A stretch of 46,519 nucleotides of DNA. It comes from Actinomycetota bacterium. GTDB taxonomy: Bacteria; Actinomycetota; Actinomycetes; Mycobacteriales; HKI-0501. The notes under the pieces are model-generated. The model was not told the DNA's origin. It saw only the letters and a list, made by a program, of their open reading frames with translations, and did no database searches. Of this stretch, positions 25,521 through 28,774 are shown piece by piece; the first letter of the stretch is position 1; the number at the start of each line of letters is the position of its first letter. Position numbers and translations under genes: made by a program. The DNA is taken from positions 1-46,519 of the forward strand of contig JAVEDU010000003.1 in assembly GCA_030840805.1 (NCBI GenBank), read 5' to 3'.

Positions 25521-25526
25521 TATACT
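25521..25526 (+). promoter_or_regulatory. -10 box of the riboswitch transcript
   Basis: TATACT is a near-consensus -10 hexamer in otherwise GC-rich DNA. Transcription would begin around 25532, exactly where the first stem of the riboswitch starts. The -35 region is weak (no TTGACA-like hexamer at 16-18 bp). Confidence 0.6.
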
Positions 25527-25530
25527 GGAA

Positions 25531-25638
25531 CGGTTGAAGGGGAGTAGCCCTCTCTGCCGGTGAGTCGACATGCTGGGACCTCGGTCCCCGGTTCCCGGGC
25601 CCGCGCTCGCCAGCGCGGGTGGGCGAGACCTTCGATCC
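25531..25638 (+). ncRNA. yybP-ykoY (Mn2+-sensing) riboswitch aptamer
   Basis: The conserved elements occur in order: GAAGGGGAGTAGCC (25536-25549), GTCGACATGCTGG (25564-25576) and GCGAGACCTTCG (25623-25634). Stem P1 is formed by 25531-25540 with 25629-25638 (eight or nine pairs, including two G-U). The variable arm between 25577 and 25620 holds a GC-rich hairpin. This is the yybP-ykoY family, shown in other bacteria to bind Mn2+ and to turn on manganese export genes such as mntP. It sits in the leader of a CaCA exchanger, whose transport of Mn2+ is therefore likely. Confidence 0.9.
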
Positions 25639-25667
25639 ACTGTCAGACGTCTGTCTGCCGCTGGGTC

Positions 25668-25717
25668 GAGGTGGCTCGCCAGCCGGTGCACCACCTCTCC
25701 CCACGGCTCGGGAGAGG
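25668..25717 (+). promoter_or_regulatory. Riboswitch expression platform: mutually exclusive hairpins hiding the RBS
   Basis: GAGGTGG (25668-25674) can pair with CCACCTC (25691-25697). CCTCTCCC (25694-25701) can instead pair perfectly with GGGAGAGG (25710-25717), which is the Shine-Dalgarno of the exchanger gene. The two stems share 25694-25697, so only one can form. This indicates translational control: Mn2+ binding would favour the first stem and free the ribosome site. The direction of switching is inferred. Confidence 0.65.
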
Positions 25718-25728
25718 AACCCAGCACC

Positions 25729-26787
25729 GTGCTCCACGTGGTCCTGTTACTCGGCTGTGCCGTGGTCATCTATCTGGCGTGCGAGTGGTTCGTGAACGCC
25801 GTCGAATGGCTCGGCGTCCAGCTCAAGTTCGGCCCCATCGCGGTCGGCACCATCCTTGCCGCGGCGGGTACTGCACTGCCCGAGAGCGTGGTGACGCTGG
25901 TCGCGGTGCTGTTCGGCAGCAAGGAACACGGCAGCGACATCGGCGTCGGAGCCGCGATGGGCGGCCCGCTCGTGGTCGGCACCATCGCGTACGGCGTCAC
26001 CGGCGCGATGATCCTCTGGCGGTACCGCAAGAAGCGCGTCAAGGCGCTCGCGACCGTCGGTGGCGGCGACCTCGCACAGTCCACGGAGGAGGGTGACGGG
26101 GCCGCCCCCGGACTGGACACCGTGGACACCCGCCGGCTCGCCCGGGACCAGTCCTGGTTCCTCGCGATCTTCGTGGTGAAGGTGGCCCTGGGCCTCGTCG
26201 CGTTCGCGGTCAAGCCGTGGCTCGGCCTGCTGTTCTTCCTGGCGTACGCCGTCTACTTCTGGCACGAGACCCGCAGCGGTGACGAGCAGGCCTCGGGTGA
26301 CGACCTGGAGCCGCTGAAGATCCAGCCGAGGCGCGCCGTGCCGGCCAAGCTCGCGGTGTGGACGCAGACGCTGCTCGCACTCGCCGTGGTGTTCGCGGCG
26401 TCGCAGCTGTTCGTCGCGCAGCTGGAGTGGGCCGGCCCCGCGCTGGGGCTGCCGTCCGTGGTCGTGGCGCTGCTGCTGTCGCCGATCGCCACCGAGCTGC
26501 CCGAGGTGATGAACGCGATCATCTGGGTCCGGCAGGGCAAGACGCAGCTCGCCGTCGCGAACATCTCCGGCGCCATGATGATCCAGGCCACCGTGCCGTC
26601 CGGCCTCGGCCTGCTGTTCACCCCGTGGCACTTCACCACGGCGCCGCTGCTCGCCGGTATCGCCACGATCGCGTCGGTGGCGTACCTGCTGTGGGTGATG
26701 CGGTCCGGCCGGATCACCGGCGGGCGGCTGCTGGCCGCCGGTGGGTTCTACCTGGCCTTCGCGGCCGGGCTGGTCCTCACGCTCTAG
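25729..26787 (+). CDS. CaCA-family cation exchanger (Na+/Ca2+ exchanger fold)
   Basis: The 352-residue membrane protein has two inverted alpha-repeats with the conserved acidic motifs GTALPESVVTLVAVLFG (near residue 45) and SPIATELPEVMNAIIW (near residue 255), separated by a charged cytosolic loop (GGDLAQSTEEGDG). This is the YrbG/NCX-type CaCA family, an ion-coupled exporter of divalent cations. GTG 25729 follows GGAGAGG with an 11-nt gap; the upstream frame reads through the riboswitch and is not coding. Control by a manganese riboswitch suggests Mn2+ as well as Ca2+ export. Confidence 0.88.
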   Translation: MLHVVLLLGCAVVIYLACEWFVNAVEWLGVQLKFGPIAVGTILAAAGTALPESVVTLVAVLFGSKEHGSDIGVGAAMGGPLVVGTIAYGVTGAMILWRYRKKRVKALATVGGGDLAQSTEEGDGAAPGLDTVDTRRLARDQSWFLAIFVVKVALGLVAFAVKPWLGLLFFLAYAVYFWHETRSGDEQASGDDLEPLKIQPRRAVPAKLAVWTQTLLALAVVFAASQLFVAQLEWAGPALGLPSVVVALLLSPIATELPEVMNAIIWVRQGKTQLAVANISGAMMIQATVPSGLGLLFTPWHFTTAPLLAGIATIASVAYLLWVMRSGRITGGRLLAAGGFYLAFAAGLVLTL

Positions 26788-26827: not shown

Positions 26828-28774
26828 GTGATCACCGCGCCGGCCCGGCCGCGGGCGGACCGTGTACGCAGCTGGCTGCTGCAGGGACTCGACGACGCCC
26901 CGATGGGTTCGCCCGGCCCGCGTCGGCCGGCTCCGCCGCAGCCGGTCACCCACCCCTGGTGGAAGGTGATGTGCCTGACCGGGCTGGACTACTTCTCCAC
27001 GCTCGGTTACCAGCCCGGCATCGCGGCGGTCGCCGCCGGCGTGCTGTCGCCGGTGGCCACGCTGGTGCTCGTCGTGCTGACCCTGGGCGGCGCGCTGCCG
27101 ATCTACCGGCGGGTCGCGGCGGAGAGCCCGCGCGGGCAGGGCTCGCTCGCGCTGCTGGAACGGGTGCTGCCGGAATGGGCCGGCAAGGTGTTCGTGCTGG
27201 TGTTGCTCGGGTTCGCGGCCACGGACTTCCTCATCACCATGACGCTGTCGGCCGCCGACGCGACCGCCCACGCCATCGAGAACCCGTTCGCCCCGGCCGC
27301 GCTGCACGACCGGCAGGTGTTGATCACGCTGGTCCTGCTGGCCCTCCTCGGGGCGGTGTTCCTGAAGGGGTTCACCGAGGCCATCGCGATCGCCGTCGGG
27401 CTCGTCGGGCTGTACCTCGTGCTGAACCTGGTCGTCGTCGCCACCGCGCTGGCGCGGCTCGCCGCGCACCCCGAGCTGGTGCGGAACTGGGAACGTGCGC
27501 TCACCACCCACTACTCCAGCCCGCTCGTGATGGCCGGGGTCGCGCTGCTGGTGTTCCCGCGGCTGGCACTCGGCCTGTCCGGGTTCGAGACCGGCGTCGC
27601 GGTGATGCCGCAGATCCGCGGCGAGCCGGGCGACACCGACGAACGGCCGCTGGGCCGCATCCGCGGCGCCCGGAAGCTGCTCACCACGGCCGCGCTGATC
27701 ATGAGCGTGTTCCTGCTGAGCAGCAGCGTGGTGACCACCGTGCTGATCCCCGCGAACGAGTTCCGGCCCGGCGGCGCCGCCAACGGCCGGGCGCTCGCGT
27801 ACCTGGCCCACGCCCAGCTCGGCGACGCCTTCGGCACCGCGTACGACCTCTCCACGATCGCGATCCTGTGGTTCGCCGGGGCGTCCGCGATGGCCGGCCT
27901 GCTCAACCTCGTACCGAAGTACCTGCCCCGGTACGGCATGGCGCCGGAGTGGGCGCGCGCCGTCCGCCCGCTCGTACTGGTGTTCACGGTCGTGGCGTTC
28001 CTGGTGACGTGGATCTTCCGCGCCGACGTGAACGCGCAGGGCGGGGCGTACGCCACCGGGGTGCTCGTGCTGATCACGTCCGCCGCCGTCGCGGTCACGC
28101 TCTCGGCCCACCGGCAGCGGCAGCGCCGCGCCAGCCGCTACTTCGGCGTGGTGGCCGCCGTGTTCGTCTACACCACGGTCACGAACATCGTCCAGCGGCC
28201 GGAGGGCGTCAAGATCGCCTCCTGCTTCATCGCCGGGATCCTGGTGGTGTCGTTCACGTCGCGGATCCTGCGCTCCTTCGAGCTGCGGGTGGACTCGGTC
28301 GAGTTCGACCTGGTGGCCGCGCGGTTCCTCGACGAGACGGCCGGGCCGGTCCGGATCGTCGCCAACGAACCCGACGAGCGGGACGCCCGGGAATACGCCG
28401 AGAAGGAGCGGGAGACGCGGGAGCGGGTCACCATCCCGCCGACGGACCCGCTGATGTTCCTGGAGGTCACGGTGACCGACCCTTCGGAGTTCTCCACCGA
28501 CGTGTGCGTGGTCGGTGAGGACCGGTTCGGGTACCGCATCCTGCGGGTCGACAGCCCGATCGTGCCCAACGCGATCGCCGCCGTGCTGCTGGCCGTGCGG
28601 GACCGCAAGGAGCGGGTGCCGCACGTCTACTTCGAGTGGACGGAGGGCAACCCGCTCTGGCAGCTGGTGCGGTTCCTGTTCCTCGGCGTGGGCGAGATCG
28701 CGCCGGTGACCCGGGAGGTGCTGCGGGAGGCGGAGCCCGAGCCGAAACGCCGCCCGGTGGTGCACGTCGCCTGA
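26828..28774 (+). CDS. APC-type transporter with soluble C-terminal domain
   Basis: The 648-residue protein has a polar N-terminus and about 12 hydrophobic helices starting at [20 protein letters not shown] (near residue 45). A cytosolic C-terminal part from about residue 490 includes [20 protein letters not shown] and [12 protein letters not shown]. It belongs to the APC superfamily; relatives are annotated as amino acid permeases, but the substrate is unknown. The GTG start at 26828 has GAGGGG immediately before it; the ATG at 26903 is a possible alternative. It follows the exchanger gene by 40 bp, so read-through from the riboswitch operon is possible. Confidence 0.85.

Follow-up and report, generated by a model that had tools for sequence, protein, structure and literature searches.

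The locus studied here raises the question of whether an exchanger gene of the CaCA superfamily, placed behind what looks like a manganese riboswitch, codes for a Mn2+ exporter and, if so, how the RNA controls it. The window, that is, the whole 46,519-nt stretch of actinobacterial DNA analysed, carried in its initial annotation a yybP-ykoY riboswitch at 25521-25638, followed by an NCX/YrbG-type exchanger. Our analysis makes it highly probable that the RNA is a Mn2+-sensing yybP-ykoY riboswitch, belonging to an actinobacterial branch, and that it switches on a CaCA antiporter that exports Mn2+, through an exchange between P1 and anti-P1 pairing that acts on the Shine-Dalgarno sequence.

Identity of the aptamer and its linkage to exchanger genes

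At the Rfam gathering score of RF00080 (45 bits), which is a detection convention and not a defining biological feature, no match was found in the whole window. When this model, whose use had been proposed as a check, was run against the region only (311 nt), it gave a significant match at 25524-25620 on the forward strand (27.8 bits, E 4.9e-6), though below the gathering score, and in a genome-wide search (4.46 Mb) the window aptamer was the sole match (E 1.7e-5). A covariance model built from 62 exchanger leaders only (R1) gave 97 bits for the window aptamer, the window itself being in the training set. Among 41 genomes of the same order, R1 found the aptamer in 35 and RF00080 exceeded its cut-off in none, whereas in Proteobacteria the relatives of the exchanger, 48-56% identical to it, lie behind aptamers scoring 51-89 bits with RF00080, above the cut-off (Massilia 89, Azospirillum 76.7, Aeromonas 64.9 and Novosphingobium 51.5 bits). 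This indicates that the low score is a property of the actinobacterial branch and not a decay of the window copy.

The aptamer, delimited by the RF00080 match, R1 and covariation, occupies 25528-25642 on the forward strand and lies 86 nt upstream of the exchanger gene, which has a GTG start. Exchanger homologues were drawn from one genome per species (84,980 species), giving 80 loci, and the aptamer stands directly upstream of the gene in 62 of them. In 61 it was recognized by a motif, GGGGAGUA plus GRYGAGACC no more than about 300 bases ahead of the gene, and in one (L011) by the model. At a further locus (L004) it lies about 670 nt upstream, and near 15 of the 80 homologues no riboswitch can be recognised, which counts against our preferred explanation. 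Two Streptomyces leaders (L027 and L075) have kept the 3' half of the aptamer and lost GGGGAGUAG; they appear to be decayed riboswitches, each followed by an intact exchanger gene.

The minimum free energy fold of the window aptamer has the canonical layout of P1 (25532-25540 paired with 25629-25637), P2, P3 and P4, with an energy that does not differ significantly from that of shuffled sequences (z -1.58). In the 62-row alignment of the window with 61 homologous leaders, 89.3% of cells pair, changes on both sides of a pair number 147, compared with 38.6 ± 8.0 after shuffling, and the covariation score is 0.235, compared with 0.04-0.08 when the partners are slid, so that covariation supports the P1-P4 architecture of the window-type aptamer. 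The six inner pairs made by the P1 5' strand (25532-25540, forward strand) are kept in 61-62 of the 62 leaders, and the P4 hairpin (25599-25620, forward strand), seen in the fold, is variable in length and covaries. The P1 3' strand (25629-25638, forward strand) is common to P1 and to an alternative, anti-P1 helix. The L1 block GGGGAGUA (25539-25546, forward strand) is invariant in all 62 leaders, and so is A25570 in the L3 loop ACAUGCU (25568-25574, forward strand). The conserved blocks and the P1 stem of the initial annotation are thus borne out.

By comparison with published structures (PMC6754395), from which the site was assigned, A25570 is the counterpart of A48, the Mn2+-sensing adenosine of the Xanthomonas oryzae aptamer, whose L3 reads ACAUACU. 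The window aptamer shares L1 GGGGAGUA, the Mn-sensing adenosine and four helices with the X. oryzae and Lactococcus lactis aptamers of RF00080, and its L3 is of the X. oryzae kind; it differs from these structures by a G-C instead of an A-U pair at the P3/L3 border and by its score below gathering. The exchanger leaders have UC-G-ACA where the Rfam consensus has UC-A-ACA, which had suggested that a Mn-sensing adenosine was lost (A41 to G). This reading was counted from the L. lactis loop (UCA41), and in the long loop the sensing adenosine lies two bases further on. We rejected it because PMC6754395 places A48 of X. oryzae in ACA48UACU, which corresponds to the invariant A25570; the A/G site of UC-A/G-ACA is the closing pair of P3/L3, either A-U or G-C. 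Taken together, these comparisons confirm at the sequence level that the element is a real yybP-ykoY aptamer, whose RNA would bind Mn2+.

Promoter and expression platform

The hexamer TATACT (25521-25526, forward strand) had been read as a promoter that sets the RNA start at P1. A TANNNT hexamer occurs at the same place in 58 of the 62 leaders, where it ends 10-16 nt before GGGGAGUA, and just two such hexamers were seen further upstream. This fixed position confirms the reading as a -10 element, and the 5' end of the RNA is expected at or next to P1. A scan for the sigma-70 consensus found nothing, so there is no clear -35 element, and no intrinsic terminator was found. The coordinates initially given for the riboswitch were right, and the functional leader runs on to the start codon at 25729.

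Three segments of the forward strand downstream of the aptamer can pair in alternative ways. Strand B (UGGGUCGAGGUGG, 25662-25674) has two alternative partners, the P1 3' strand (25630-25639) and strand C (CCACCUCUCCC, 25691-25701). Strand C, in turn, can pair with B or with the Shine-Dalgarno sequence (GGGAGAGG, 25710-25717, 11 nt before the GTG codon), forming the 5' arm of a hairpin in which the latter is hidden. Pairing of the P1 3' strand with B is possible in 62/62 leaders and beats 95% of shuffled linkers in 57 of them, B lying 18-42 nt downstream of the P1 3' strand; the B:C pairing falls in the best 5% of shuffles in 30 leaders, where three are expected. For the window, the energies calculated with P1 open are -102.3 kcal/mol when the Shine-Dalgarno sequence is open and -108.3 kcal/mol when it is hidden, and with P1 closed they are -102.3 and -103.3 kcal/mol. 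The hidden state is therefore better by about 1 kcal/mol even with P1 closed, a point against our preferred explanation. The conserved anti-P1 pairing and the sequestered Shine-Dalgarno sequence, the hiding of which is favoured by 6 kcal/mol with P1 open and by 1 kcal/mol with P1 closed, predict a translational ON switch. When accessibility of the Shine-Dalgarno sequence was calculated for all 62 leaders alike, the mean gain (0.068, compared with 0.044 for controls) did not stand out clearly, the Shine-Dalgarno positions being poorly called in many of them; this also counts against our explanation, and for this reason we infer, rather than read directly, both the polarity and the level of control.

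In the mechanism that we propose, the P1 3' strand would pair with B (25662-25671) as long as Mn2+ is not in excess, C would be free to mask the Shine-Dalgarno sequence, and translation would be low. Mn2+ would dock L1 on L3 and so stabilize P1; B would then be released and take up C, the Shine-Dalgarno sequence would be exposed and the exporter made.

Two other views of the leader have to be weighed against this translational switch. The window RNA might control transcription instead, by Rho-dependent or other termination, as the Bordetella pertussis transcript stops inside the leader without Mn (PMC8546581) and the Escherichia coli mntP riboswitch works with Rho (PMC11647493). However, no intrinsic terminator was found (a finding silent on Rho), strand C faces a Shine-Dalgarno sequence that precedes the start codon by 11 nt, and B:C pairing is enriched over shuffles, so we regard transcriptional control as rather unlikely. 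It could also be argued from the sub-threshold Rfam score, and from the decayed leaders of relatives (L027 and L075), that the riboswitch is a non-functional remnant; as every invariant block is intact, like P1-P4 and the anti-P1 strand, and R1 gives 97 bits, this seems extremely improbable.

The exchanger and its ion site

The gene behind the riboswitch (25729-26787, forward strand) codes for a CaCA-superfamily exchanger of 352 aa, a predicted Mn2+ exporter. The protein matches PF01699 with 87.4 bits (cut-off 24.9), and its structure model, of moderate confidence (pLDDT 74), has the NCX/CAX fold (Z 20-30). The glutamates of the alpha repeats, E52 and E259, are kept in the exchanger and invariant in its homologues; two alpha repeats with a glutamate each, together with the fold, place it in the CaCA superfamily (PF01699). 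The designation as an NCX/YrbG-type exchanger holds at this superfamily level but not beyond it: the score for the YrbG calcium/sodium antiporter family TIGR00367 is 74.4 bits, far under the NCBIfam cut-off of 179.65, and S77, N81, S236 and D240 of NCX_Mj are absent. These four residues, which make the NCX_Mj ion site complete, correspond to G79, V83, A282 and Q286 in the exchanger. In comparison with the Ca2+ exchangers NCX_Mj (3V5U), YfkE and CAX, the window protein has in common the fold and the alpha-repeat glutamates, whereas the four ion-site residues are replaced and an invariant GAMM-Q stretch is present. This stretch, in the second repeat, varies only in its first A, which is S in a few homologues, and its M283-M284 pair is invariant in 28 homologues. 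A sister branch (GAMVFQ) has the same Met-Gln pattern and is found partly behind Mn riboswitches, for example in Burkholderia cenocepacia (66.6 bits). The Met and Gln residues may have a role in the choice of Mn2+.

Regulon, replacement of GDT1 and the transported ion

Across the phylum, the genes that follow R1 matches code mainly for GDT1 (17 loci), TerC (15) and P-type cation ATPases (8), families known from Mn riboswitches elsewhere; M48 peptidases, an M50 peptidase and another CaCA protein occur once or twice each. The genome of the window itself has a second R1 match on another contig (C49, L119 2476-2590, 57.2 bits), missed by RF00080 and located 26 nt before a TerC gene (L119 2616-3602). 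MntP is absent from all eight genomes checked.

In the 41 genomes of the same order, the exchanger occurs in five and GDT1 in 25, with no overlap (hypergeometric P 0.006, for two families in one order whose relatedness implies fewer independent events). R1 stands directly upstream of 20 of the 25 GDT1 genes and of four of the five exchanger genes. The Mn2+ exporters of the GDT1/UPF0016 group (MneA, Mnx) thus have in common with the exchanger the same riboswitch subtype, the same promoter-leader slot and the same order, but belong to another Pfam family (PF01169) and were never found with it in one genome of this sample. As the two are never together and occupy the same slot, Mn2+ export is the best reading of the exchanger. 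The proposal of the initial annotation is, in this respect, the best-supported function, given the 62/80 linkage, the regulon shared with GDT1, TerC and P-type ATPase genes and the exclusion of GDT1.

The pairing is nevertheless of a known kind, and the idea that this locus gave the first hint of Mn2+ export by a CaCA protein does not hold, because BP3410 of B. pertussis came earlier. This CaCA protein stands behind a yybP-ykoY riboswitch, its Mn export was established by ICP-MS, and the Mn content is about fivefold lower in strains with a working BP3410 (PMC8546581); in a review the protein appears as a 'YRBG'-type Mn exporter (PMC9936198). The BP3410 locus shares with the window the riboswitch class and the transporter superfamily, and differs by its betaproteobacterial host, its strong Rfam score (E 8.5e-15) and a transcript that stops in the leader without Mn (PMC8546581).

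The riboswitch might sense Mn2+ while the exchanger, induced to correct the ion balance at high Mn2+, carries chiefly Ca2+, with either Na+ or H+. The fold is indeed that of Ca2+ exchangers, and mixed cases exist: in Streptococcus pneumoniae, whose MgtA is an exporter of Ca2+ as well as Mn2+, the yybP-ykoY aptamer goes with this Mn2+/Ca2+ ATPase (PMC9495176, PMC9936198). However, the exchanger takes the slot of GDT1, a Mn2+ exporter, the residues D240, N81, S77 and S236 of NCX_Mj have become Q, V, G and A beside the invariant pair M283-M284, and Mn is what BP3410, another member of the superfamily, exports (PMC8546581). We consider a mainly Ca2+-moving exchanger improbable, and Mn2+ as the ion that the exchanger would carry is the reading we retain.

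The actinobacterial R1 matches (L089-L134) fall into two L3 subtypes, a long one (ACANRCY) before GDT1 and exchanger genes and a short one (A-NNN-C) before TerC, P-type ATPase and other genes, a split without exception in about 50 leaders with an assigned gene. In Proteobacteria, the leaders of exchanger genes carry the long L3. A tentative proposal, which we hold to be possible although the odds are rather against it, is that Actinobacteria use two aptamer subtypes within a single cell, one X. oryzae-like with a long L3 before secondary antiporters (GDT1 or the exchanger) and one L. lactis-like with a short L3 before TerC and P-type ATPase genes, which may respond at different Mn2+ thresholds or to different ions, and that the GAMM-Q exchanger is a dedicated Mn2+ antiporter replacing GDT1 behind the same switch.

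Within the open literature, the Rfam-missed actinobacterial branch, the swap of GDT1 for the exchanger behind one riboswitch and the division of aptamer subtypes by gene family appear new, although priority is not certain; the altered ion site and the branch missed by Rfam are modest additions. They widen the single case in which Mn2+ export by a CaCA protein is proven, BP3410, to a branch widespread among Actinobacteria and Proteobacteria, offer in the ion site a testable signature of selectivity for Mn2+ within a superfamily otherwise known for Ca2+, and show that the Rfam cut-off hides Mn riboswitches across a whole actinobacterial order.

Several minor observations were made at these loci. 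R1-type riboswitches precede M48 (HtpX-like) and M50/CBS peptidase genes, which are not usual transporter targets (L133, L134 and L105), and at L107 (1501-2948) the gene behind a riboswitch codes for another kind of PF01699 protein and is divergent from a gene for a GAMVFQ-type exchanger. The contig with the TerC gene also carries a sub-threshold c-di-GMP-I-GGC riboswitch (L119 1932-2006, reverse strand, 52.5 bits for a threshold of 59). A search for viral relatives of the exchanger found none. A permease gene 41 nt downstream was considered as part of the exchanger unit and rejected, being adjacent in none of the 80 relatives and none of five plasmid loci; its product (window 26828-28774, 648 aa), which has no Pfam match, is weakly similar to KimA, a potassium transporter (E 0.0009). 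Finally, on a plasmid of Massilia putida (L085 897-2486), an IS256 transposase gene lies between the Mn riboswitch (89 bits) and the exchanger gene.
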